DNA from: a virus
Virus record (IMG/VR): IMGVR_UViG_3300037010_000715
Span: 1-39,587 of that record
DNA: 39,587 bases
Direction: 5' to 3' (one strand)
Shown here: positions 6,893 to 39,568 of the stretch, piece after piece
How positions within the stretch are numbered: the stretch's first letter is position 1
Layout of the letters: each line of letters opens with the position of its first letter
Notes under the pieces: model-generated
The model's database searches: none
Seen by the model: only the letters and a program-made list of their open reading frames with translations
What the model was told of the DNA's origin: nothing
Position numbers and translations under genes: made by a program

Positions 6893-7174
6893 ATGAAAAA
6901 AAGTAAAGAGTACGCATCTAAAATAGTAGAGGTTGCATATCACGAAGTATTACCAAATAAAGAAACGGTACCTAAAATAGTAGATGCACTTATTACTGAA
7001 TACGCAGAACAACAAATAAAAGAACTTCAATCTTTATTGGATTTAAGCAATCTGCAATTAAAGTCAAGTAAGCAAGATGTTAAAGAACTCAAAGATGAGA
7101 TTGAAAAAACTAAACAATGGAATCTTGAATTAGTTTACGCTAACAAATTTATGTCAATAGATAGTCATAAATAA
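6893..7174 (+). CDS. Hypothetical coiled-coil protein (93 aa)
   Basis: A 93-residue acidic protein whose second half (from about residue 40) is a long coiled coil with repeated Leu/Lys/Glu heptads. It follows the primase-helicase by 42 bases in the same direction. No family is recognised. Confidence 0.6.
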   Translation: MKKSKEYASKIVEVAYHEVLPNKETVPKIVDALITEYAEQQIKELQSLLDLSNLQLKSSKQDVKELKDEIEKTKQWNLELVYANKFMSIDSHK

Positions 7175-7301: not shown

Positions 7302-7430
7302 ATGCGTTCAAAATTTGATAAAAAACTTACAAAAGTAAGTAAAATAAGAAAAGTTATAAAACTTTGTAAAAAAAATAAATACGTTAAACTAATAGATATA
7401 TTTAATTATGATATGTTTTATCGTAATTAG
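7302..7430 (+). CDS. Hypothetical basic peptide (42 aa)
   Basis: 42 codons with about a third Lys or Arg in the first 30 residues, ending at 7430 just before the -7 box of the lipoprotein promoter. A nucleic-acid-binding role would fit the charge but is only a guess. Confidence 0.4.
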   Translation: MRSKFDKKLTKVSKIRKVIKLCKKNKYVKLIDIFNYDMFYRN

Positions 7431-7433
7431 TTG

Positions 7434-7441
7434 TATATTTG
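7434..7441 (+). promoter_or_regulatory. -7 promoter box of the lipoprotein gene
   Basis: A perfect TATATTTG lies only four bases before the ATG at 7446. No good -33 box is visible 20 bases upstream. If used, the mRNA would be leaderless or nearly so. Confidence 0.45.
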
Positions 7442-7445
7442 TTTT

Positions 7446-7775
7446 ATGAAATATTTATTTATCATATTATTATTTGCATTAAGTTGCAAAAAAAAAGAAA
7501 GTGCTAAACCCTTAGAGGTTGCTAATGTTGAGGTTTATTGTAAATCGGCTAATGCAACGGTTAATACTAATATTTTAGAAACTATCAACACGCAACATTT
7601 TAATAAATCGTTTGAAGTTAGCGATCCCGAAATAGTAATATACGTTAAAAACAATGTTAAGTCAAGTAATGACAGCATAAATATTAAAGTTACTTATTTA
7701 GGTATTACTAAACAACAAGGCATGAAGTGCGTTAATACTATTGGTAATGTTGGATTTCAATTAAGTAGTTTTTAG
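7446..7775 (+). CDS. Predicted lipoprotein (109 aa)
   Basis: The N terminus is MK followed by a hydrophobic run and a lipobox ending ALSC, then KKKES; cysteine 14 would be acylated by the host and the protein anchored in a membrane. The remaining 90 residues are beta-rich with no named domain. It lies between replication and packaging and has its own -7 box. Some phages make an early lipoprotein that blocks the receptor against superinfection (as T5 Llp does); that role is an inference from signal, promoter and position only. An upstream in-frame TTG at 7431 lies in the promoter and is rejected as start. Confidence 0.7.
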   Translation: MKYLFIILLFALSCKKKESAKPLEVANVEVYCKSANATVNTNILETINTQHFNKSFEVSDPEIVIYVKNNVKSSNDSINIKVTYLGITKQQGMKCVNTIGNVGFQLSSF

Positions 7776-9817: not shown

Positions 9818-11041
9818 CTACTTACCAAACTGAGCAACCAAACGAGTATTTGCATCCTGCGGTGTAATAATACCACTACTTACCAAAGAATTTAAGGCAG
9901 TGCTAACAGTATTAAATGTATTTGCCGTTTCAACTTTATCAGTTTGTAAGTATGGTAAATGACTATAATCTAAGACTAATCGACTACCTTTATCAATACC
10001 TATAAAAGTACTTAAAGCCTGAGTAAATCCATCGGCATAAGGCACAACCGTATCGTTGTGCGTTTGAATTAATCCATGCTTTAGATTTTCATAAGTTGAA
10101 TTAATAAATAAGTTTTGATTAACTCCTAAAACGTTAAGAATAGTAATAAAATTAGCCTCTATTTGTTCCATTAACAACAAGTCTTTTGTTGGGTAACTCA
10201 TAGGTGACCACGTAACCGATCCAGTCGTAATATGTATTTTCTTTTGTCCGTCTTCTATTCCGTTTTCATTTCTATAAGTTGCTTCAAGTTCTTTTTTCTC
10301 TTCTGGCGTCATAGGCAATGCACCCATAGCATCTTTACTTTGAGAGCTTAACACGCCTATTCCACCTTTCTCAGTACTAATACAATTTAAGTATTGACTC
10401 GCAGCAACCGTATTACTTAAAGGGTATTTCATAGCTTGTAAAGGACTAAAACCAATTAAGTTATTATCTAAGTCGCTAATCTTTGACCATAAAATTTGAT
10501 TTACTTCGAAAGTTTTTTTAGTACCGTTTTCGTCATATTCATAATTACTTACAATACCTTCAAGTGTCACCTGATCGAATAATTTGCCAGTTAATTTAGG
10601 TTTAATATTTGCTGAACTAATATTTAATAAACTTTGTGGTGTAGTGCTTAATCTACTTGCGCTATTTTTATAAATGAACTGATTACCATATACGATAAGC
10701 TGAGTTAAGTATTGTTTTAAGAACGGGTTTTGCCCTTGTAATATGTTTGGATTCTCTAATAATTTAGCAACATCTGGAGGTAATGGCAATACTTCATTAC
10801 TACCTATTTTTTGTAGCATGAATTTACCATTTGCGAACATAGCCCCTAATTTATCTACTGGCGTTCTTAGTTGTGGAATGGTATTATACAAGTCGTAAGG
10901 TACTTGGGTATTAATATAAACCTCACCTTTATTTATTTGGTAATTAATTCGACTATCAAAATACTGTTTTCTTTGGTTCTTTTTATTAAACAAAGCACCA
11001 AAGCGCTCGATAAAGTTTAAATCTTGATAATTTGATTGCAT
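9818..11041 (-). CDS. Portal protein (HK97-type)
   Basis: 407 residues on the minus strand, of a length usual for HK97-type portals. The N-terminal part has VPYDLYNTIPQLRTPVDKLG. The middle has the conserved ISDLDNNLIGFSPLQAM stretch and the C-terminal third has LMEQIEANFITILNVLGVN and YENLKHG, all typical portal segments. It forms the dodecameric ring for DNA entry and tail joining. Every other recognised gene here is on the plus strand; the portal alone is inverted between terL and the protease. It therefore needs its own transcript, probably from the -7 box at 11079-11086. Confidence 0.88.
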   Translation of the reverse strand: MQSNYQDLNFIERFGALFNKKNQRKQYFDSRINYQINKGEVYINTQVPYDLYNTIPQLRTPVDKLGAMFANGKFMLQKIGSNEVLPLPPDVAKLLENPNILQGQNPFLKQYLTQLIVYGNQFIYKNSASRLSTTPQSLLNISSANIKPKLTGKLFDQVTLEGIVSNYEYDENGTKKTFEVNQILWSKISDLDNNLIGFSPLQAMKYPLSNTVAASQYLNCISTEKGGIGVLSSQSKDAMGALPMTPEEKKELEATYRNENGIEDGQKKIHITTGSVTWSPMSYPTKDLLLMEQIEANFITILNVLGVNQNLFINSTYENLKHGLIQTHNDTVVPYADGFTQALSTFIGIDKGSRLVLDYSHLPYLQTDKVETANTFNTVSTALNSLVSSGIITPQDANTRLVAQFGK

Positions 11042-15001: not shown

Positions 15002-15948
15002 TGACTAATAACCAAACATATAATCGTTTACTACCAATCATTAACCAGATTGATAAGGGTATAGTGTGCCAAAGTGTTACGGCCAATATTGACGGCACAT
15101 TTACTTTTTTATGTAAAGATACTGGATATTTAACTGCTGGGTATAATATTACTATTGGATTATTAGCTTATACGGTTGTTTCCTTTGATTGTAACGTGTC
15201 AATAACTGTAAGTGGTGCAAGTTTACCCACAGTATTAACGTTTGATTTATACCCACCTATTTACAAGCATGGTACTATTACTAAAGTAGCAAGTGAATTA
15301 AATACATTAACAGATTTTAAGCAAAGAACGCCTTTAATATTTTTACATGAAATAGTTGAGGAGAAATATCATTTTGACCCATTAGATGCCATTGATACTG
15401 ATTCCGATGTTCGTTTATATTTCTTAACAAATTGTAACATAAAAGACTGGACTCAATTACAAGGAGACACATTAGGCGTACAGCCTATGCGTAATTTATG
15501 GAATCGTTTTATTGTTGCTTTAGTAAATAGTCAGTATGTAAGTGACATGACTGGCATTGGAAGTGTAAAGAATTACAATGTATTCGGAAACATAAACGAC
15601 AACGGAACTGTTAAAAATATATTTAATGATTTTTTAAGTGGTGTTCAAGCAAAAATAACTATTCCATTTTTAAGAGATTGTGATTGTTGCGACACGAATA
15701 CTTTAGATAATCGACCAGCTCCTGCCTATGTTTATAATAATTTAGGCGTTATTTTAGCAGTTCTTTATTCAAATCAAACATATACAGTAGTAAGTGGTGG
15801 CGCTTGTGCAGACGTAACAATTCAAAATATAATTACAGGGGCTACAATAACAACAGTTGCAAGTGGTGGAACTTACCAAGTAGAACAACTAACAGAAATA
15901 ATTGACACAATAGATTCAAATACAACAACAATAATTGATCCAATATAA
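15001..15948 (+). CDS. Putative neck or tail-completion protein
   Basis: 315 residues, beta-rich ends with a central part containing FLHEIVEEKYHFDPLD and a CDCC cysteine cluster near residue 226. It lies between the adaptor and the likely tail-tube gene. I do not recognise the family; the call rests on gene order. Confidence 0.5.
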   Translation: MTNNQTYNRLLPIINQIDKGIVCQSVTANIDGTFTFLCKDTGYLTAGYNITIGLLAYTVVSFDCNVSITVSGASLPTVLTFDLYPPIYKHGTITKVASELNTLTDFKQRTPLIFLHEIVEEKYHFDPLDAIDTDSDVRLYFLTNCNIKDWTQLQGDTLGVQPMRNLWNRFIVALVNSQYVSDMTGIGSVKNYNVFGNINDNGTVKNIFNDFLSGVQAKITIPFLRDCDCCDTNTLDNRPAPAYVYNNLGVILAVLYSNQTYTVVSGGACADVTIQNIITGATITTVASGGTYQVEQLTEIIDTIDSNTTTIIDPI

Positions 15949-23227: not shown

Positions 23228-26200
23228 TGGGAGTTTACGTTAATTCAATTACATATACAAATCCTTTAGATAGTAATCCTGTTAGTTGGCCATTATTAAA
23301 CGTTGGCGATGAGGTTTTAATTACTCATAATATTTCGGTTAAAGAATTTACATTAGCGTCAACTGTAACACCTTGGATTGTAAACAATACTGACGGTTAT
23401 ATTGGTACTGGTTGGATTACTGGTGGCGACTTTTCAAAATTAATGGTAGGCGATACTGTTATGCTTTGGAATTATAATTTAGGAGTTGTAAATATTGCAT
23501 CGGCTACAATTATTGACAAACTTTCAGCAACCGAAATAAGAATAAATACATCTGGAGGTTACCCGAATAACGACCCTTGGATTGAAAATGTTATGTCGGT
23601 TACAATGCCAATAACGGCTTTAACTTACAAATATAATTGGATTGAAAACGCAGAGGCCACTAACTATTATTCAAAAGTAGACGGAAGCACTCATAATGCA
23701 ACTATTACAGGGCTTAATCCTGCTGGGGCTGGTACTAATAAACCAATGGCATGGACTAATTCAGTACCATCTCAAATTGGAAGTGTTGTAGTTGATGAAA
23801 CAAGCCTTACAACAACATTAATTTATAGTTCAAACTTTGCTATTAAACATACAACTAGGGTGACTCCTACGATGTTAGCTGAGCAATGGGATGATATTTA
23901 CGCTGGAATAAAACCAGATTATTTCTTTAATCTTAATTGCTTAAAAGCTATTTTTTATTACCAAGCGTACTATTTTGTAACTGACCCTAATCATATTCAT
24001 ATTTTAGAAAGTGATACAACGTTAGGAAATACAGGACATTTTAACGAAAGTTGGAATACAAACTTAACGAATTATTATATTGAGAATATTATTTATACTG
24101 ATGTTGCAACTGCTACAGTAGTTTCAAAAGCAACATTAAAACCAACATTTACAGACTTTGAATTTTATGTTAGAAATACAATAGATAGTCCATTTGTTGC
24201 GGGACAAACGAGATTAATAGTTAATTTTGCTAAAGCCCCTTATGATGAGATAGAGTACCAAGGGAATTCAAGAGATTTAAAACATAACTTTGTTTGGGAT
24301 AGCAAATTATTAACATGTGCATTAGTTCCAGTTGCTGTTGACGGAGATAATTATTCAGACGTTAATATGCGTTCAATAAGTGGTTTAAAAGCTACTTATG
24401 TAAGTGCAACAAGTGTTAAAATAACAGGGCGTTTAGCTTTTACATCTCAAAGTATATCTGTTTTTGAAGAGTCTGAAGAACCTCGTTATATGTTTTGGGT
24501 ATCAGTTCAAGAAAGAGCAAAGGTAGGAGCTTTAAGCGATAGAGTAAATTTAAAAGTTGATTTTAGTAAATTCTTTTATCAAACTGATTTCCCTAATTTA
24601 ATTACTTATAACGTATCAAAACTTGTGCCTAGTACAGTAAATACATTAGCGACTGGGTATGTAGCCATAAACGATACATTTTCGGAGGATGAGATTGTGG
24701 GATATAATCAAGTAACTGTAGGAACTGACCCATTAGTTACATCATGCTTATTAACTAAATTTACTGGTCGTATTATCGCTAAAAATTATACAACAAATGA
24801 AGAATTTACTTTAGAAAGTAAAACATTATTATTACCAGCTACGCCAATAGTTAGTGGATTTCAAAACTTTAATTTATCACAGCCTCGTAATTTTCATGTT
24901 CCAACTACTGAAATAAGAAAAAATATAAAAGCTAAGGCAGACACAACGCTAGGCGATTATACTTTTGCGTTTCCGTTTTTAGTGCGTTGGGAGTATTGGA
25001 AAAGTTTACTATCTGTTAATTCATTTTTCTTTGATTCGACAAAACCTTTAAACGGATTTAACCACCAATGGACACGATTTAATAATAATGCTTATGCTGG
25101 TGATTGGTATCTTAAATATGAGTGTGAAATTTCAGCTAAAGTAAATGGAAGTAATGCAAGTTATATAGGTGGTTCTTCATTTACAAATTTTGATAGAAAT
25201 TTATCAATCACTGGAATATCAGGAGTTATTGATACTTATGATGCATCGACGTTAACCGCTTTAGTTAGTGGTGGTGTTAAATATATTTTAGGGTATGCAA
25301 ATACTAGAGTAAAAGCAACATTTACAAGGGATATTGCATGGACAAAGCCAACAATAATTATAGGAATTGAAGTTTTTGAGTCTGGTGGAGTTGACGGAAA
25401 ACGTCGCATACATTCTGATTGGGCTAGTGATTCAGATACTTGGTTTATTCCTTTGGCTGGAGTTGGTGCTAATAAAGTAAAAGTAACAACTGCTGGAGGC
25501 GTAACTTATGGTGAGTGTGATTTAGATTTCACTAAAATATCGGCTTTAGTTGGTTCACCTAAATGGAAAATAACAGGTAGGGTTTATGATACAGTAGGGG
25601 CTACTTTGTCAATAACTGATGGCTTTGGATATTTAAGAAGTCAAAATGTATTTATGATTCCTACTGATCCTATTCCTACTGAAACAATAGTTACTTCTCA
25701 TGTTACTACTGATTGTTGTAGCGATTTAGTTTGGCGTGTTTTAGCTGATGCGGATTCAACTTTAGATTTGAAAAATGACAAAACATCATTCTTACAATGG
25801 TTTAATAAAGACGCTATAAATACTGCGGTTGTAAAATTAGTTAAGCCAGATTTAACAGAGGTTACTTTAACAGCATCTACACTTTACGGTACGCCTTACG
25901 ATTACGGATTTAAAACAAATAGTAAGAATGAAAAATTAGTAGGCTATTTAATTGACTGGCATTTGATTTTATTAGCGTTTGGCGATGGTATTTATTCGAT
26001 TAAATTTTATGTAACTACTATTTTTGGAGGCGCTAAAACAATAACTGAAAAATCGTATTGCTTAAAACAATATACTGAAGCGAGAGCAGACGGAACAGTA
26101 AGAGTTGAGTATAATCAAAAAGGGATGTTAGGGGATAGTAAAATAGATGAGTTACTTCGTGATTATGCTGACTTGACATGGTACCAACAACATCGTTTTG

Positions 26201-31468: not shown

Positions 31469-31526
31469 ATATAACGAGTTGCATATAGGCGAATGAACAA
31501 ATAGCGTTGGAATTGTGCGGTTGGAT
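31469..31526 (+). repeat. Degenerate attC-like site (attC0, doubtful)
   Basis: An R''-like ATATAAC (31469-31475) and an R'-like GTTGGAT (31520-31526) flank a 44-base stretch with only about five pairs, GCATA with TGTGC. It follows the broken ORF and precedes a small gene. It may be a decayed cassette junction; pairing is too weak to be sure. Confidence 0.3.
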
Positions 31527-31540
31527 TAAATACTAAAATT

Positions 31541-31720
31541 ATGTTTGAAAAAATAAAAATAGAAGATGTTAATTTATCAAAATTAAAGGTTGGAGATTAC
31601 TTTGTTATTAAGGATTTCGCAATAGAAACAAAACATACAAGTTGGTTCAACGGAACTAATTTTGATAGTTCTAAGATTAAATATGTACTGATTCAGTATG
31701 TTGGACAAACTGACGTATAA
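31541..31720 (+). CDS. Hypothetical protein (59 aa)
   Basis: 59 residues with a short N-terminal helix and beta-like KVGDYFVIKDF. Its stop lies inside GTATAACTACTCGCTAA, a sequence repeated at the other end of the cassette array (37937-37953), so this gene may be an old cassette cargo. No family is recognised. Confidence 0.5.
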   Translation: MFEKIKIEDVNLSKLKVGDYFVIKDFAIETKHTSWFNGTNFDSSKIKYVLIQYVGQTDV

Positions 31721-31808
31721 CTACTCGCTAATCGTAACTAAAAGGTACACAAAACTAAAGTTATTAAATGTCCTTTTTAATTAGAATCATTATAAATATC
31801 ATTTTATT

Positions 31809-32333: not shown

Positions 32334-32588
32334 ATGAAAGACCAATTATTAAACGAAGGTTTAACCGCCACAGAAAACAAGCACATGACAATCTCAGACT
32401 TAAAGACGGGTTTGTTGTTAGTATTAGGGTTTCTTTTATGTATTGCAATTTGCACTACTGGACACTACTATACAAAGGCTAAAAATATGGAGCATCGATT
32501 TAATCAATGTAGTGAAATCGAAGCTATTAATCAAGCAACGATTAACGAACTTACTCACGATAATATGAATCTTGTTAATGCGAAATAA
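32334..32588 (+). CDS. Single-pass membrane protein (84 aa)
   Basis: 84 residues with a transmembrane helix at about 26-43 (LLLVLGFLLCIAICTTG) and a charged C-terminal part. The ATG at 32334 is used because the in-frame TTG at 32307 lies within the preceding gene. Its stop codon forms part of the first attC-like site, so it marks the phage-array boundary. Confidence 0.6.
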   Translation: MKDQLLNEGLTATENKHMTISDLKTGLLLVLGFLLCIAICTTGHYYTKAKNMEHRFNQCSEIEAINQATINELTHDNMNLVNAK

Positions 32589-32667
32589 GGGACGGGGCTT
32601 GTAGCTGAAATAAACCTAACAACGCTATTTTAACACTTCCGCTTTTTGCCACAAGGTTGTGTTAGTT
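32583..32667 (+). repeat. attC1 (left end, R'' degenerate)
   Basis: R' is GTTAGTT (32661-32667). GCCACAAGG pairs with the left-arm CTTGTAGC region. The R'' position reads AAATAAG instead of xxxxAAC and coincides with the stop of the membrane-protein gene. The site is nearly identical to attC7 over about 72 bases. Confidence 0.65.
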
Positions 32668-32701
32668 TACAGTAAAATAAACCAAATTAAAATAAAAAAA
32701 T

Positions 32702-32983
32702 ATGAATTATCAATCACAAGAAGAACACGATTATTATGAAAACGGAGCTGCACAAGTGCAGGCTGAATATGAACAACAAGAGTCTTATTATGAATTTTTA
32801 AATCAGTTAATTAAAAACGAAAAATATCAACTGCACGCTATTTATGTTGCTTTAGACACGTTAAGTAGTGCTGGAAATAAAGATTTTAATCCTGCAATGA
32901 GTTTTTTAGTTGATTTAAAAAATATATTAGAAATACCAAAAGAGCCAATTACACAAAAAGATATTGATGAAATGCCTTTTTAG
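32702..32983 (+). CDS. Cassette 1 cargo: hypothetical acidic protein (93 aa)
   Basis: 93 residues, very acidic and Tyr/Gln/Glu-rich at the N terminus (EEHDYYENGAAQVQAEYEQQ), then helical. The acidic charge and size would suit a DNA-mimic or inhibitor protein, but that is speculation. It is the only gene between attC1 and attC2. Confidence 0.65.
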   Translation: MNYQSQEEHDYYENGAAQVQAEYEQQESYYEFLNQLIKNEKYQLHAIYVALDTLSSAGNKDFNPAMSFLVDLKNILEIPKEPITQKDIDEMPF

Positions 32984-33034
32984 CAAAACTATATCAGCAT
33001 CAGAAAAGTAAACATCAAAGGTTTATTTTATTGA

Positions 33035-33127
33035 AACTAACGGTTGGCAATATGAAACGGTTGCCTTGTAAGACGTTTCAATTTTAGTAATAGCTTAATG
33101 GCAACTGTTTTATATTGCTTGTTAGGA
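33035..33127 (+). repeat. attC2
   Basis: R'' AACTAAC, R' GTTAGGA. Arms GCAATATGAAACGGTTGCC and GGCAACTGTTTTATATTGC pair over 19 bases with two G-U pairs. R'' is complementary to the start of cassette 1 (AGTT). Confidence 0.85.
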
Positions 33128-33142
33128 ACAGTACGATTTATT

Positions 33143-33313
33143 ATGGAACAATTAACTTGGAAAATTGATTTAAACGCTAAATGCCCACATTGTGGGGAGG
33201 AAGATACACACACGTTTTATTTAAACGCAGATACTTTAATTTGTGATAAATGCAATAAAGAGTTTAATATCGAATTGTGGGCGAAAGATATTGAGGTAAG
33301 ATGCAGTAAGTAA
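33143..33313 (+). CDS. Cassette 2 cargo: zinc-ribbon protein (56 aa)
   Basis: 56 residues with CPHC (Cys14, Cys17) and CDKC (Cys35, Cys38), a four-cysteine zinc ribbon. Small ribbons of this kind bind nucleic acid or proteins. The ATG at 33143 lies after the attC2 R' box; a longer in-frame start at 33098 lies within the attC2 arm and is less likely. Confidence 0.65.
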   Translation: MEQLTWKIDLNAKCPHCGEEDTHTFYLNADTLICDKCNKEFNIELWAKDIEVRCSK

Positions 33314-33323
33314 TTTTTATTGT

Positions 33324-33453
33324 GTCTAACGTTCCGCAGCTAAACGAGGTGGCGTTTTCCACTACAAAATATTATTAAAAACACAAATTATGAATACAGA
33401 AAAAATGCCCTTAGAAAACAAAAATGAGCCATCTTGTTTAGGTGCTGTTAGCG
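33324..33453 (+). repeat. attC3
   Basis: R'' GTCTAAC, R' GTTAGCG. Arms GCAGCTAAACGAGGTGGC and GCCATCTTGTTTAGGTGC pair along most of 18 bases. The central spacer is long and contains the start codon of the next ORF. R'' is not a perfect complement of the cassette 2 start (AGGA). Confidence 0.82.
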
Positions 33454-33599
33454 GTAGTGCTTTTGAAAAAATAATTAAATTATATGAAAACTCTTTAAAT
33501 TGGGATTTTGATGGTACAGCATGGTTGAGTGCAACGAATTATGAGGAATCGCAGAAAGAATTTAAAGAACAATTAATAAAAATACTAAACACTCTTTAG
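33390..33599 (+). CDS. Cassette 3 cargo: hypothetical protein, ORF starts inside attC3
   Basis: 69 codons starting at an ATG in the attC3 spacer. About 20 residues are encoded by the attC itself and the frame runs through the R' box into cassette 3. There is no in-frame ATG after the cassette boundary, so the cargo is either translated from the attC or is a truncated gene. The cassette part reads FEKIIKLYENSLNWDFDGTA. Unknown function. Confidence 0.5.
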   Translation: MNTEKMPLENKNEPSCLGAVSGSAFEKIIKLYENSLNWDFDGTAWLSATNYEESQKEFKEQLIKILNTL

Positions 33600-33605
33600 T
33601 ATTAC

Positions 33606-33682
33606 CGCTAACGTTAAAAATAAACGATGGTGGCGTATGCGGTTACATAATTTCAGCCACTATTGTTTATTGATTGTTGCCA
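33606..33682 (+). repeat. attC4
   Basis: R'' CGCTAAC, R' GTTGCCA. Arms AATAAACGATGGTGGC and GCCACTATTGTTTATT pair over 16 bases with two G-U pairs. TACCGCT before AAC complements AGCGGTA at the start of cassette 3. Confidence 0.85.
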
Positions 33683-33712
33683 GTAGTACGGATTTTTAAA
33701 ACAAATTATTTT

Positions 33713-34564
33713 ATGAATGTATTAAGTTTATTTGATGGTATGAGTTGCGGACAGATTGCACTCGATAATTTAGGAATAAAAGTAGATAATTACTTTGCTA
33801 GTGAAATTAAAAAACACGCAATACAATGTACTAAAGATAATTTTCCAAACACAAAACATATTGGAGATGTAACGAAAGTAAAAGCTATTGATTTGCCTAA
33901 AATTGATTTGTTGATAGGTGGAAGTCCTTGTCAAGATTTTAGTCGTGCAAATAGTGTTCGTGATGGTTTACAGGGTATGAAATCAATGTTATTTTATGAA
34001 TACATACGATTACTTGAAGAAACGAAACCAAAATACTATTTACTCGAAAATGTGATAATGGATGATATAGGCTACAGTACAATATCCGATTTATTAGGAA
34101 CTGAACCTGTAAGATTATGCGGATCGAAAGTAAGCGGGGCATTAAGAGATAGATTGTTCTGGACTAATATTGGACCTGAAAGATTTGATTTGTTTGGAAA
34201 CCGAAAAAGTGCAATACCACAACCGAGAGATAAAAAAATATTATTGAATGATGTTTTAGAATACGGATATTCAGACAAAAAGAAACATACTTGTTTAAAT
34301 ACAAGTTGTGGCCGAGATGCTAACCAAAGATATATGTTGCACCGATACGCAACTACTGGAATGACAACAATAATTTATACAGACGAAACTATGGATGAAA
34401 GTAAAGGAGTGAGATATTGCACTCAAACAGAATTAGAAAAACTGCACAATATCCCAATAGGTTATACAAAAAACCTAAATAAAGCGCAAGCTGGTAATTT
34501 AATAGGCGATGGTTGGAATGTAGGGATTGTGGAGCACATTTTCTCTTATATGCAATTAACGTAG
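33713..34564 (+). CDS. Cassette 4 cargo: DNA C5-cytosine methyltransferase
   Basis: 283 residues with the ordered motifs of the family: motif I FDGMSCG at 7-13, motif IV GGSPCQDFS with catalytic Cys73, motif VI ENV at 112-114, a DRLFW motif VIII-like element, and the C-terminal GNLIGDGWNVGIVEHI of motifs IX-X. The target-recognition part is short. It would methylate cytosine to 5-methylcytosine, protecting DNA from host restriction. It is the largest cargo and the only clear enzyme with a known reaction. The ATG at 33713 follows attC4 by 30 bases; the earlier in-frame TTG lies inside attC4. Confidence 0.92.
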   Translation: MNVLSLFDGMSCGQIALDNLGIKVDNYFASEIKKHAIQCTKDNFPNTKHIGDVTKVKAIDLPKIDLLIGGSPCQDFSRANSVRDGLQGMKSMLFYEYIRLLEETKPKYYLLENVIMDDIGYSTISDLLGTEPVRLCGSKVSGALRDRLFWTNIGPERFDLFGNRKSAIPQPRDKKILLNDVLEYGYSDKKKHTCLNTSCGRDANQRYMLHRYATTGMTTIIYTDETMDESKGVRYCTQTELEKLHNIPIGYTKNLNKAQAGNLIGDGWNVGIVEHIFSYMQLT

Positions 34565-34570
34565 TATTAC

Positions 34571-34664
34571 TGGCAACGGTTGGGTGTATGAGAAGGTTTG
34601 CTTATATAAACTTTCAAATTACCACTAAACTTAATAGCAAACTTTCTTATACACCTTGTTATAA
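34571..34664 (+). repeat. attC5
   Basis: R'' TGGCAAC, R' GTTATAA. Arms GGTGTATGAGAAGGTTTGC and GCAAACTTTCTTATACACC pair over 19 bases with two G-U pairs. TACTGGC before AAC complements GCCAGTA at the start of cassette 4. Confidence 0.87.
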
Positions 34665-34688
34665 GTATGTAAATTAAATTTATTAGAT

Positions 34689-34889
34689 ATGGAAACACAA
34701 CACAAATACAATGCTTGGAAAGCCAAATCAAATGGCGAACCAATAGAAGGGACTGATAGAATATTTAATGGTGTTAGCAAAAGAGCAATAATTAAACATT
34801 TGGCTTTCGAGGAAGATGTTGAACATCAACATAATGATATGATAGTTAGATGTAAAGATGGAACAATGTGGTGTGTTTCTCAAATTTAA
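34689..34889 (+). CDS. Cassette 5 cargo: hypothetical protein (66 aa)
   Basis: 66 residues with AWKAKSNGEPIEG, an acidic middle (EEDVEHQHND) and a beta-like end. No family recognised. Single gene between attC5 and attC6. Confidence 0.6.
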   Translation: METQHKYNAWKAKSNGEPIEGTDRIFNGVSKRAIIKHLAFEEDVEHQHNDMIVRCKDGTMWCVSQI

Positions 34890-34897
34890 TTTATTAC

Positions 34898-34977
34898 TTA
34901 TAACGTTACGAAGCTAAAAGCTGACCGCCTTTATTATCGGTTAGGTGATGGCGGTTTGATTTTAGATTGTGTTAGGT
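34898..34977 (+). repeat. attC6
   Basis: R'' TTATAAC, R' GTTAGGT. CCGCC/GGCGG and CTAAAA/TTTTAG pair across an internal loop. TACTTAT before AAC complements ATAAGTA at the start of cassette 5. Confidence 0.8.
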
Positions 34978-35036
34978 GTCTGGTTTTAAAACGAATGAGT
35001 GCAAATAGAATAGTAAAACATATAATTTAAAGTAAA

Positions 35037-35270
35037 ATGGAAAAAAAGAAAAAATATCAATTCCTGTTTTTTTATACAGATTCTGGCGAATGCGGAGAAA
35101 CTAAAGAATACTTGGCTAGTAGTATTAAAACAGCTTGTAGAAAATTTCATAATTGGAGAGAAAACACAAGAAACGAAAGACCTTTTGATGTATTGGATTA
35201 TGAAGTGAGATTAGGTGAAGACTTTATTAATATATCAGAAATAGAAATAATAAAAAAATATTTAAACTAG
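35037..35270 (+). CDS. Cassette 6 cargo: hypothetical protein (77 aa)
   Basis: 77 residues, Lys-rich start then FLFFYTDSGECGE, a helix with CRKFHNWRE, and an acidic end. It looks like a compact alpha/beta fold. No family recognised. About 45 bases separate its stop from attC7, longer than in most cassettes. Confidence 0.6.
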   Translation: MEKKKKYQFLFFYTDSGECGETKEYLASSIKTACRKFHNWRENTRNERPFDVLDYEVRLGEDFINISEIEIIKKYLN

Positions 35271-35315
35271 CTACAACGTTATATAAACACAGGTGGGGAG
35301 GGTTTTAAAACTTGC

Positions 35316-35400
35316 ACATAACGGACGGGGCTTGTGGCTGAAATAAACCAAACAACGCTATTTTAGCACTTCTGCTTTTTGCCACAAGGTTGTGTTATAA
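35316..35400 (+). repeat. attC7
   Basis: R'' ACATAAC, R' GTTATAA. CTTGTGGC pairs with GCCACAAG. The inner region matches attC1 at all but about four of 72 bases. R'' is one base off the complement of the cassette 6 start (AGGT). Confidence 0.8.
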
Positions 35401-35432
35401 GCCGTTTATTATTAACGATAAAACCAAATAAA

Positions 35433-35726
35433 ATGATAGTAGATAATATTGGATATTTAAACTTAGAATCTGTTTCAGAATTGGGACATTTTTCAATTTA
35501 CGAAACACATAAGAAAACACAAATACTTGTGAAAAATACAAGTGAAGAAAAACTTACACTTTATTTACCCGATAAAAGTAGATTAGAATTTAAAACAGTT
35601 GAGGATAAAAAGATAGTTAGCGGAGTAAAAGTTTTTGACTCTAAAACAGATTCATTAACCAATATTGATACGGCTAAATGGAATGGGGGGAAACAGATAA
35701 TGTCATACGAAGAATACTATCGTTAA
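35433..35726 (+). CDS. Cassette 7 cargo: hypothetical protein (97 aa)
   Basis: 97 residues, beta-rich (GHFSIYETHKKTQILVK) with the end YEEYYR. The ATG at 35433 is 33 bases after attC7; an in-frame TTG at 35379 is inside the attC arm. Unknown family. Confidence 0.6.
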   Translation: MIVDNIGYLNLESVSELGHFSIYETHKKTQILVKNTSEEKLTLYLPDKSRLEFKTVEDKKIVSGVKVFDSKTDSLTNIDTAKWNGGKQIMSYEEYYR

Positions 35727-35731
35727 ATGGC

Positions 35732-35815
35732 TTATAACGGTTTGCAGCTACACGCAGTTAAAAATAGCGTGGGCATCAGCAAGGGATTTTTAATTGCTTG
35801 TAGGTGCTGTTAGGC
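35732..35815 (+). repeat. attC8
   Basis: R'' TTATAAC, R' GTTAGGC. Arms CAGTTAAAAAT and ATTTTTAATTG are the core of a 20-base imperfect stem. GGCTTAT before AAC complements ATAAGCC at the start of cassette 7. Confidence 0.87.
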
Positions 35816-35862
35816 GATGCTTTTCTTCGGTCAATTTAGTAACAATTTAAAACAAATATAAA

Positions 35863-36300
35863 ATGTCAAACAAAAACAAAATTTTTCTCGGTGGAACTTG
35901 TGCCGAAACAACTTGGAGAAAAGAGTTGATTAGTAAATTAAATTCTATTCCTTATTTCAACCCTGTTGTTGAAGATTGGACACCTGAATGTCAAGCAGTA
36001 GAAATTCAAGAAAAAGAATTTGAATGCAATATTCACTTTTACTGTATAACCAAAGAAATGCAAGGTGTGTTTTCTATTGCAGAAGTTGTGGATAGTGTTC
36101 ATAATAGATTTAAACGAACAATTTTACACGTTATTCCTGATGGATTTGAAAAGGGGCAAATAAAGTCTTTACAAGCAGTTGTTGACTTAATAAATTCTCG
36201 TGGTGGAACTGCTTATGTAGATAATGATTTGTCAAGGTCTGCTCGTGTTCTTAATTACTCATTTTCAAATTACGATGATGCTGTTCAGAGTATCGCCTAA
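35863..36300 (+). CDS. Cassette 8 cargo: nucleoside 2-deoxyribosyltransferase-like protein
   Basis: 145 residues starting with IFLGGTCAETTWRKELI, followed by FNPVVEDWTPECQ, an acidic EIQEKEFEC and a GVFSIAEVVDS helix: the layout of nucleoside 2-deoxyribosyltransferase domain proteins. Such proteins exchange bases on deoxyribonucleosides or serve as nucleotide sensors; activity here is unproven. Its stop codon overlaps the R'' box of attC9, so the cassette is almost all gene. Confidence 0.75.
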   Translation: MSNKNKIFLGGTCAETTWRKELISKLNSIPYFNPVVEDWTPECQAVEIQEKEFECNIHFYCITKEMQGVFSIAEVVDSVHNRFKRTILHVIPDGFEKGQIKSLQAVVDLINSRGGTAYVDNDLSRSARVLNYSFSNYDDAVQSIA

Positions 36301-36372
36301 CGTTATCTAGCCTTGCTTAGTTTGGCTATAAGCAGTTATATAATGCCAAATTGAGCAAGGGTTGTGTTAGTT
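36295..36372 (+). repeat. attC9
   Basis: R'' GCCTAAC, R' GTTAGTT. Arms CCTTGCTTAGTTTGGC and GCCAAATTGAGCAAGG pair over 16 bases with two G-U pairs. ATCGCCT before AAC complements AGGCGAT at the start of cassette 8. Confidence 0.88.
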
Positions 36373-36402
36373 TTTAGGCACTTAATTAAATATAAAAAGA
36401 AT

Positions 36403-36732
36403 ATGAAAATGAAAATAAAAGAAGCAGAATTTAAAACAGTAATGCGTGAATGCAAAGAAAAAATATCAGATTGTATTTATGGATGCGATGAGTGTAAAAA
36501 AGAATTTGAGTCAGACTCTAAATTATCAATAGATATTTTTAGTCAATCTGATAGTACAGAAAATTTAGATTTTTGCTCTTGGGTATGTTTATTAAAACAC
36601 CTACCAAAAGTAGAATGTAATTACTTTGTTAATTTACCTTATTTAAGTTACGATAGCAAAACTAAAGGATGTAACGCTAGTGATTTTATTAACGCAATAG
36701 GTAAAGTTTCCAATAATAGTAATAGTGCTTGA
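36403..36732 (+). CDS. Cassette 9 cargo: cysteine-rich protein (109 aa)
   Basis: 109 residues with CKEKISDCIYGCDECKKEF near the N terminus and two later cysteines (FCSWVC), which could form a zinc site. The ATG at 36403 is used; the in-frame TTG at 36364 lies in attC9. Function unknown. Confidence 0.6.
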   Translation: MKMKIKEAEFKTVMRECKEKISDCIYGCDECKKEFESDSKLSIDIFSQSDSTENLDFCSWVCLLKHLPKVECNYFVNLPYLSYDSKTKGCNASDFINAIGKVSNNSNSA

Positions 36733-36864
36733 AACTAACGGTTCAGGTATTGCCGAAGGCAGGGATTTGAAAGACGAAAGTTTCAACCTTGCACAAATGC
36801 CCAATAGAAGTATAAATGATTAATTAACCGATAATGCCCTGCTTTTGGCAATACCTTGTTAGGT
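36733..36864 (+). repeat. attC10
   Basis: R'' AACTAAC, R' GTTAGGT, about 132 bases. Arms GGTATTGCCGAAGGCAGGG and CCCTGCTTTTGGCAATACC pair over 19 bases. AAACT before AAC complements AGTTT at the start of cassette 9. Confidence 0.88.
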
Positions 36865-36892
36865 GCAGTGCTTCTCACAAACTTAAATAAAA

Positions 36893-37087
36893 ATGGAATA
36901 CTTAAAAATTGCAGAAATCGCTAACAAATGCGAAGTTAAACATCAACAAATTAGCGAACATTACAGAATGATTGGTGCAAACAACCAATTTACAGATGAA
37001 GTTAGAAATGTCTTTTACGCTGACATTAAAGATATGGAGCGTGATTTGAAAACATTAGAAGGTAAACTTAGCAAGTATGTCAAATAG
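36893..37087 (+). CDS. Cassette 10 cargo: hypothetical helical protein (64 aa)
   Basis: 64 residues, all helix, with EVKHQQISEHYRMIG in the first half and a charged coiled end. No family recognised. Confidence 0.6.
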   Translation: MEYLKIAEIANKCEVKHQQISEHYRMIGANNQFTDEVRNVFYADIKDMERDLKTLEGKLSKYVK

Positions 37088-37093
37088 CATTGC

Positions 37094-37173
37094 ACCTAAC
37101 GTTTTGCAGATAATGGCTGGCGGCTTTTTAGCAAACAAAGTATGTAGCCGCTTGACATTAGGTGCTGTTATAG
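37094..37173 (+). repeat. attC11
   Basis: R'' ACCTAAC, R' GTTATAG. TAATG/CATTA and GCGGC/GCCGC pair around an internal loop. TGCACCT before AAC complements AGGTGCA at the start of cassette 10. Confidence 0.84.
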
Positions 37174-37225
37174 GTAGTGCCAAAAGTAAAGACTAAAAGA
37201 ATATTAATAATTAAAACTATAAAAA

Positions 37226-37525
37226 ATGGAAGATTATATTAGTAAAATAGTACAAGATGCTGCTAAAAATTTACAAATTGAAAAGGAAAGACTAATTAAA
37301 TTAAGGATTAAAGAACGTGTTAATGAAGATGTTGATTTAATTTTAGAAGCTCAAAAAAGATTTTCAAAAATAGGTAGAGAGTTTCATTCAAACGACCAAA
37401 GCGAACATTGGTATTGGAACGATGGAACTGAAAATGGATTACATTTAATTAGTTTTTATCAAGATTTTGAGCAGGATTTAATGAGTAAAGATTACAAATT
37501 TAATGCAGGTTTTAAATATCGTTAA
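37226..37525 (+). CDS. Cassette 11 cargo: hypothetical protein (99 aa)
   Basis: 99 residues: an N-terminal charged helix (KERLIKLRIKERVNED), then aromatic-rich sequence with SEHWYWNDGTENG. No family recognised. Confidence 0.6.
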   Translation: MEDYISKIVQDAAKNLQIEKERLIKLRIKERVNEDVDLILEAQKRFSKIGREFHSNDQSEHWYWNDGTENGLHLISFYQDFEQDLMSKDYKFNAGFKYR

Positions 37526-37552
37526 TTATATAAGAAGGTTAAAAGGCATTAC

Positions 37553-37643
37553 ATATAACGGTTTGCGGCTAAAAGCAGTTGCCTATTAACAAATACTGCT
37601 TGATAACACGCTTATCTGCAATTGCTTTTAGCCTTTGTTATAA
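37553..37643 (+). repeat. attC12
   Basis: R'' ATATAAC, R' GTTATAA. Arms GGCTAAAAGCAGTTGC and GCAATTGCTTTTAGCC pair over 16 bases. GGCATTACATAT complements ATAGGTAGTGCC at the start of cassette 11 at 10 of 12 positions. Confidence 0.88.
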
Positions 37644-37663
37644 GCTGATTAAATTTTTTAGTG

Positions 37664-37930
37664 ATGGGGAAAATGACAAAAGAAAAAGCAGAAAAAGTAT
37701 ATGAATTACTTGTAAGCATAGGTGGTGCATATGAGCCAGAAAAAGATAGTTTTATTTACCACCATACAGAAAGTAAAGATGGATGTGGTGAATGGCGTTT
37801 TTCGGGTAAACTTGGATTCGGTGGTAAATACCGAAGTGGTTATAATAGAGTAGATTGTTACAGAGAAGATGAAACGACTGAAATGATTAAATTAATGGAT
37901 GAACTTAACGGTGCGTTGGCAAAAATTTAA
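37664..37930 (+). CDS. Cassette 12 cargo: hypothetical protein (88 aa)
   Basis: 88 residues with a helical start (MTKEKAEKVYELL), then FIYHHTES, CGEWRFSGKLGFGGKYRSG and a C-terminal helix. Possible starts are GTG 37661, ATG 37664 and ATG 37673. No family recognised. Confidence 0.6.
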   Translation: MGKMTKEKAEKVYELLVSIGGAYEPEKDSFIYHHTESKDGCGEWRFSGKLGFGGKYRSGYNRVDCYREDETTEMIKLMDELNGALAKI

Positions 37931-37935
37931 TTTGC

Positions 37936-37994
37936 ATATAACTACTCGCTAAGACTACCTAAAGAAAATAGTATTGATAATCAATAAGTTATAA
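37936..37994 (+). repeat. attC13, half-site at right end of the array
   Basis: R''-like ATATAAC (37936-37942) starts TATAACTACTCGCTAA, also found at 31716-31731. A GTTATAA lies at 37988-37994, but the intervening arms do not pair. It looks like a truncated attC or the right junction with phage DNA. The following 37995-38070 holds only AT-rich sequence with a near-consensus -7 box TATCTTTA (38045-38052). Confidence 0.5.
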
Positions 37995-39034: not shown

Positions 39035-39568
39035 ATGGAAAACAAAACTATTGAAACGTGCTTAATGCAATTTCAAACAGAGATTGGAATCATTAAAAAA
39101 GATTCTAAAAACCCACATTTTAAAAATACCTATGCTAGTTTAGGTCAAATACTAAGCGAAGTAAAACCTATTTTAACAAAGTGTGGATTAGTATTATTAC
39201 AACCTATTGATGCTAATGGTGTTACTACTAAAATATTAATGGCTGGAGGCTCAGAAACGGACTTTGTAGAATCGTTTATTCCTTTACCTATTGGATTAGC
39301 ACCGCAACCTTTAGGCTCTGCAATTACTTATTATAGACGTTATACGTTAAGTTCATTACTAGCTTTAGAAATTGATGATGATGATGCTAGTATGGCTAGT
39401 AAGCCAGTAGAACAAAAACCAACCGCAAACGAAGTAGATTTAGTAAATTCTAAAATAATAAACGCTAAAACACTTGAAGAGTTACAAACTATGTTTAAAG
39501 CATTAACTCCATTAGAGCAAAGAATAGCTACTGAATTAAAAGATAAATTAAAATTAACACTTAAATAA
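39035..39568 (+). CDS. erf: ERF-family single-strand annealing protein
   Basis: 177 residues with the ERF core: NPHFKNTYASLGQIL at about residues 28-42, VKPILTKCGL, and GSAITYYRRYTLSSLLALEIDDDDA at about 90-114. ERF proteins coat single-stranded DNA and anneal complementary strands in phage recombination. They fit with the RusA-like resolvase downstream across the circular junction. It is the first gene behind leader 3. The C-terminal 44 residues are repeated at 2-136. Confidence 0.92.
   Translation: MENKTIETCLMQFQTEIGIIKKDSKNPHFKNTYASLGQILSEVKPILTKCGLVLLQPIDANGVTTKILMAGGSETDFVESFIPLPIGLAPQPLGSAITYYRRYTLSSLLALEIDDDDASMASKPVEQKPTANEVDLVNSKIINAKTLEELQTMFKALTPLEQRIATELKDKLKLTLK

Follow-up and report, generated by a model that had tools for sequence, protein, structure and literature searches.

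The window analysed here is the whole of an IMG/VR virus record (IMGVR_UViG_3300037010_000715; 39,587 bases), and the portal, capsid, primase/helicase and ERF genes that it contains identify it as a phage record. The nearest relatives of its terminase are found in Bacteroides phages and other gut phage records. Positions 32583-37943 hold an array of twelve hairpin sites, labelled S1 to S12, each followed by a small plus-strand open reading frame (ORF), and these ORFs are numbered as cassettes 1 to 12. The twelve attC-like sites lie within 5.1 kb (32583-37643), all on the plus strand and with no integrase nearby, which is the arrangement of a cluster of attC sites lacking an integrase (CALIN). 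The array closes on the right at an attI-like site, termed the anchor, at which cassette differences between related phages also end.

The hairpins were compared with a covariance model, R1. It was trained on 30 attC from Xer-like loci in bacterial chromosomes and on no phage sequence, and 17 of its 23 base pairs show compensatory changes in that training set. R1 matched 11 of the 12 sites at full length and on the plus strand only, with expectation values (E) from 7e-16 to 0.013: S2 (33035-33127, E=2e-5), S3 (33324-33453, 130 nucleotides, E=2e-15), S4 (33606-33682, E=7e-5), S5 (34571-34664, E=3e-8), S6 (34898-34977, E=2e-5), S7 (35316-35400, E=0.013), S8 (35732-35815, E=7e-9), S9 (36295-36372, E=2e-9), S10 (36733-36864, 132 nucleotides, E=7e-16), S11 (37094-37173, E=6e-8) and S12 (37553-37643, E=2e-10). 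The sole array site missed is S1 (32583-32667, plus strand), in which AAG replaces AAC in a degenerate R'' box; nevertheless, it is identical to S7 at 75 of 80 positions. These values come from covariance models built on bacterial sites of uniform length, and the sites of the window have variable loops. Outside the array, a single match in the window falls below E 0.1 (at 24985, E=0.022), and across viral records R1 gives more than 70 matches over 26 records, the best at 113 bits. A purpose-written structural scanner found 8 sites scoring at least 19 in 5.5 kb, where dinucleotide-shuffled sequence yields 0.25 on average. Weaker evidence comes from folding each site alone as a single strand, with z from -2.4 to -3.3 for some and near zero for others. 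As a separate observation, the hairpin and leader at 32586-32707 of the window are 91% identical to positions 7391-7512 of another phage (L002; L and G numbers are our labels), after which unrelated ORFs follow in the two phages.

The bases after GTT are complementary to those preceding AAC at the end of the same cassette, with exact matches of 5, 2, 7, 7, 7, 1, 7, 7, 5, 7, 3 and 3 bases in cassettes 1 to 12, respectively. With ten bases compared, GTT included, the complementarity extends over at least five bases in eight cassettes and over seven in six. The summed run is 97, compared with a permuted mean of 57.5 and a maximum of 89, and none of 100,000 permutations reaches 97. Such complementarity is specific to the cassette and is the footprint of a cassette formerly circularised on its own attC; together with the insertions and deletions (indels) of whole units in relatives described below, it marks the cassettes as once circular. 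At the level of sequence, the array is thus confirmed as an integron cassette array of the attC type (CALIN) lacking an integrase gene. The same had been claimed in an earlier, sequence-only reading of the window, which named a covariance-model search as the check; that search did find attC, and no IntI or Phage_integrase gene accompanies them in the window. Its count of nine complementary cassettes comes close to the eight found here, without being matched exactly.

On the right, the last ORF (cassette 12, 88 amino acids, 37664-37930, plus strand) has no hairpin after it and runs directly into the anchor, AAC/TACTCGCTAAGAC, which occurs twice in the window, at 31719 and 37940. The right-end copy (37940-37960, AAC/TACTCGCTAAGACTACCT) has an 18-bp core common to the array ends of 17 related viral loci. 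The first copy (31719-31746, AAC/TACTCGCTAATCGTAACTAAAAGGTAC) matches the anchor of relatives together with the sequence downstream of it (87% to L002 8508-8545) and stands after a decayed one-cassette array, so that the array extends further left than first described. This remnant consists of a decayed plus-strand attC (31470-31527), which has no R1 match and is 85% identical to the start of an attC at L008 7752-7808, and of a plus-strand ORF of 59 amino acids (31541-31720), which ends in a stop codon that shares bases with the AAC of this anchor copy. In another viral locus, L014, the array-end site of its own kind is likewise doubled, at 15919 and 18496, each copy closing a separate array. 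The identical junction closes the arrays of four relatives found by way of ERF (L002, L005, L006 and L008), with a different left-hand sequence in each, and a search with the anchor led to further viral loci, several of which have unrelated right flanks. Other phages close their arrays at different sites of the same kind, which form further anchor families. Read on the minus strand, the anchor (...GTCTTAGCGAGTA-G/TT) has the spacing of an attI site, and its AAC-N7-TA spacing also exists in 12 of 14 bacterial attI. In the Xer-like loci of Bacteroidota, the attI is situated 90-126 bp from the integrase stop and begins with AACT in 16 of 16 cases, as phage anchors 1-3 do, with AACT and TA at positions matching the phage anchor. 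The anchor was also considered as a host chromosomal attI and rejected: 84,980 species genomes gave three exact matches, two of which have no array, while the third sits in a metagenome-assembled genome on a contig that looks like phage. Upstream of classical intI genes, similarity to the anchor showed no excess over shuffles.

In bacterial integrons, the crossover lies on the AAC side of the modelled hairpin, towards attI and the integrase, and in the phages the hairpins are oriented in the same way towards the anchor (at L008 4237, R1 scores 113.5 bits on the plus strand and 19.2 on the minus strand); polarity was called first with the purpose-written scanner and then with a model trained on the sites it had chosen. 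The ORFs point toward the anchor in phages by 26 to 1 and away from attI in bacteria by 56 to 6 (Fisher p=1e-15, which overstates the evidence since the counts are of cassettes and not of independent lineages), and 107 of 111 array ORFs are on the plus strand. The canonical orientation, in which the ORF points away from attI and the attC follows its own ORF, is therefore not that of the phage arrays, whose cassettes mirror the bacterial ones. The attC then stands at the 5' end of its own gene, and the moving unit is mostly a hairpin plus the following ORF, rather than an ORF plus the following hairpin. In several phage cassettes, the start codon lies inside the attC loop, as in S3 of the window (33390) and in a methyltransferase cassette of a cultured mumin phage (L309 7003-7126, start at 7055), so that the hairpin may affect translation.

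Profile searches (TIGR02249 and PF00589) found neither IntI nor Phage_integrase in the window, and the integrase gene of a complete integron is thus absent there; of the 16 records searched for the Phage_integrase domain, 15 gave no match, namely the window and 14 of the 15 related records. The phage attC resemble those of Bacteroidota chromosomal arrays that terminate next to the gene of a tyrosine recombinase, whose transcription runs in the direction of the array. These Xer-like enzymes lack I2, the IntI insertion of about 41 residues, with a catalytic box spacing of 94-95 amino acids in 28 of 28 compared with 136 in 28 of 28 IntI; by box spacing and alignment, they differ from a classical IntI, in which I2 lies between the catalytic boxes. 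I2 has been described as necessary for cassette capture (PMC7790495). Examples of such array-adjacent genes, all on the minus strand, are L253 3591-4634, L254 2488-3660 and L255 3148-4602, and others occur in L278-L307. A relative of the Xer-like integrase is present in 53 of 395 sampled genomes of the phylum, which record titles give as Bacteroidota, and R1-type attC were found in the short flank of 20 of 30 fetched Xer-like loci. By model scores, the phage attC belong to the family found beside the Xer-like, I2-less Bacteroidota integrase.

We consider it probable that the array is a phage-borne, integrase-less integron, run in trans by a host integrase and carrying exchangeable, methyltransferase-rich genes, much as integrons exchange genes for antibiotic resistance. 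A classical host IntI, with its I2 domain, acting in trans on the phage sites was the proposal of the sequence-only reading, and several facts speak for it. IntI exceeds the NCBI cut-off in 105 of the same 395 genomes, recombinases of the IntI kind accept varied attC, and in a published assay (PMC9892861) five out of six attC taken from other phages were recombined by IntI1. The attC beside such genes, however, form a different family: model R2, built from attC of loci beside I2-containing IntI genes, gives at most 29 bits on phage sites and nothing in the window, whereas R1 reaches 113 bits. The classical enzyme is for this reason an unlikely candidate.

The clearest view of cassette movement comes from pairs of related phages, whose indels and end sites are independent of the scanner and of the model trained on scanner-chosen sites. 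L005 and L008 match without a single difference in three blocks totalling 3.1 kb (909, 2122 and 127 bp) and are set apart by two clean AAC-to-AAC cassette indels. L002 and L111 have three blocks 98.6-99.3% identical with differing cassettes in between, and L111 has a further cassette pair in common with L008, whose array likewise begins on the left at TAAC, beside a conserved phage gene. Across 21 phage pairs, 28 of the 37 ends of homology blocks in arrays fall at an attC or anchor AAC in both partners, where 0.46% is expected at random. The cultured Flavobacterium phages mumin6-2 and mumin6-3 differ by one AAC-to-AAC unit of 506 bp, and snork9-1 holds a mumin cassette at another position. Alignment of near-identical phages thus shows gain, loss and reordering of cassettes exactly at AAC points. 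As an additional observation, mumin6-2 and mumin6-3 also differ in three bases after GTT, about 650 bp upstream of the inserted cassette (L309 7969-7971 compared with L310; GTTATAGGC vs GTTAACCGC), and the own-end complementarity is broken in mumin6-2.

Such swaps could also be made by the recombination of the phage itself, through its single-strand annealing protein ERF, or through a recombinase that escaped recognition, acting on repeated hairpin ends. The ERF gene adjoins the array (39035-39568), about 13 bases after AAC are common to the hairpins and are sufficient as short homology, and incomplete records could hide a phage recombinase. The anchor and attC, however, have only TAAC in common, yet the exchanges stop there to the base; own-end complementarity is expected of circles closed at attC and not of annealing, and ERF-type exchange would need no fixed attI-like end. 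Exchange by the phage alone is therefore quite improbable. Still less probable is a static relic, namely a piece of a chromosomal array taken up by illegitimate recombination and now inactive. An origin of this kind is discussed for phage CALINs by Qi et al. (PMC9892861), and decayed sites exist in the window (S1 and 31470-31527); but the whole-cassette differences at exact boundaries refute it for the relatives, the ORFs are reversed compared with those of chromosomal arrays, and phages whose right flanks are unrelated have the identical end site. An assembly artefact, in which collapsed or joined repeats mimic cassette differences, is conceivable given that metagenome assembly produced the window and the majority of its relatives, but its probability is negligible, being refuted by separately sequenced cultured isolates with the same anatomy and a single-cassette difference and by an end site common to unrelated contigs.

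In the phage-borne integron run by a host enzyme, each unit would comprise an attC hairpin and the ORF after it. Insertion, excision and sometimes reordering of units would take place at the AAC box that precedes the hairpin on its 5' side, with the fixed AAC/TACTCGCTAAGAC site at the right end as the second exchange point. The phage would provide the attI and the cassettes, and a host tyrosine recombinase would act on them in trans; the most likely candidate is the Xer-like integron integrase that stands beside same-type attC arrays in Bacteroidota chromosomes. The ORFs would be reversed so that phage transcription entering from the left reads them, and would be kept so owing to the position of the attI-like site, downstream of the array. 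The cargo of DNA methyltransferases, a deoxyribosyltransferase-like protein and small proteins would form an exchangeable counter-restriction and accessory set; we infer both the direction of transcription and the benefit to the phage.

Several points weigh against this account. Most anchor loci were found via the anchor itself, so that the conservation of its first 18 bases partly reflects selection, although five loci (the window, L002, L005, L006 and L008) are independent of that search. The likeness of anchor to attI is moderate: a position weight matrix ranks anchors 1-3 in the top 1-6% of AAC positions, and the first copy in the window only in the top 10%. One reordering in snork9-1 is bounded on the GTT side, and the hairpin plus following ORF is thus not always the moving unit. 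Virus records may be incomplete, so that a missing recombinase is no proof of absence, and we infer the enzyme acting on the phage sites from sequence. With distinctly less assurance, we lean towards the fuller statement that Bacteroidota phages maintain an integrase-less integron of their own, with a phage attI and phage-specific reversed cassettes, on which host integrases of a distinct, I2-less class act in trans by recombining attC hairpins, giving a rapidly exchangeable counter-restriction set that alters plating.

The loading or reshuffling of the array supposed in the sequence-only reading is borne out by the related phages, in which hairpins and gene order did not stay unchanged. Action of a host integron integrase in trans is retained as a supposition, with the R1 and R2 scores pointing away from classical IntI. 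The cassettes it described are real units, mostly of the opposite make-up to its ORF with trailing hairpin, and in describing the array it overlooked the fixed attI-like end. Its picture of the phage as a carrier of cassettes between hosts was not supported by these comparisons. In the bacterial loci examined, the phage cassettes have only a few remote matches; on that ground they were rejected as recent copies of chromosomal ones, and they look like a largely phage-specific pool.

Among the plus-strand cassettes of the window, cassette 4 (33713-34564) encodes a C5 cytosine DNA methyltransferase (Pfam PF00145, E=1e-30; phrog_116, E=6e-43) and cassette 8 (35863-36300) a nucleoside 2-deoxyribosyltransferase-like protein (Pfam PF15891, E=1.2e-9). 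Cassette 2 (33098-33313, 71 amino acids) is zinc-ribbon-like (Pfam Zn_ribbon_IS1595, E=1.5e-5, slightly below cut-off), and its longest reading begins within S2. Cassette 1 (32702-32983, 93 amino acids) has no family match. The remaining ORFs are cassettes 3 (33390-33599, 69 amino acids), 5 (34689-34889, 66), 6 (35037-35270, 77), 7 (35433-35726, 97), 9 (36403-36732, 109), 10 (36893-37087, 64) and 11 (37226-37525, 99). DNA methyltransferases recur as cargo in L008, L087, L115 and L025, and four are present in mumin6-2. Muminvirus isolates that plate less well on strain LMO6 have been reported to be without a specific methyltransferase (PMC7077304); judging by the annotated regions, that gene is presumably an array cassette. 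Many of the cassette genes probably serve to mask phage DNA from restriction enzymes. In FPSV-S1, which has a related cytosine methylase, no R1 site was found within the 12 kb examined. Two bacterial loci are recorded alongside. In L166 (11549-12601), the cassettes of a chromosomal integron beside a classical intI are reversed and possibly phage-derived; one of them encodes a Dam methyltransferase of phage type (phrog_111, E 6e-41). In L317 (279-1468, Empedobacter brevis plasmid NZ_CP043636), two attC of the R1 type flank lnu(H), a gene for a lincosamide nucleotidyltransferase, in canonical orientation. Elsewhere in the window, the portal gene (9818-11041) is on the minus strand amid plus-strand structural genes.

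Phage CALINs have been published, for example in Polaribacter phage P12002L and Tetrasphaera phage TJE1 (Qi et al. 2023, PMC9892861), and they share with the window attC arrays without an integrase gene and DNA methyltransferase cargo. The text consulted describes two or a few sites per phage, compared with 12 in the window; it describes no fixed attI-like end, no gain or loss among relatives and no systematic ORF reversal, and names no Flavobacterium phage. R1 found no site in P12002L. The sedentary chromosomal integrons of Bacteroidota with an Xer-like integrase (G075, G212, G116 and G393) share the R1 attC family and the AAC-side crossover with the phages; unlike them, they possess an integrase gene, ORFs directed away from attI and 20-38 sites per genome. 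Classical integrons, with I2-containing IntI, likewise have attC hairpins, circularised cassettes and own-end complementarity, and an attI to which the anchor would correspond; the phages have no intI, a different attC family and reversed ORFs. The cultured Flavobacterium phages Muminvirus and Lillamyvirus snork from the Baltic (PMC7077304) have an array of this kind too, with the polarity seen in the window, a fixed end on the right (AAC/TACAATATTACATG) and several methyltransferase cassettes; their anchor sequence and phage genus differ from those of the window, and the words 'integron' and 'integrase' are absent from the text of that paper. In the open-access literature searched, which leaves most subscription papers outside, we found no report that phage arrays have a fixed attI-like end, that phages differ by cassette turnover, that cassettes can be reversed or that integron arrays occur next to an integrase without I2. 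Phage CALINs and the recombination of phage attC by IntI1 are already known (PMC9892861), and the related phages add the fixed attI-like end, exchange at the AAC point, ORF reversal and the Xer-like attC family.

If the account is true, cassette exchange of the integron type would belong to phage evolution as a continuing and organised process, and would be more than a chance passenger. This would also explain why close phages do not have the same methyltransferases, where these influence plating on neighbouring strains, as reported for Muminvirus isolates, and the cultured phage-host pairs offer a setting in which cassette exchange could be watched. Furthermore, integron-type arrays beside recombinases that lack the domain thought necessary (PMC7790495) would make the origin of integron integrases testable.

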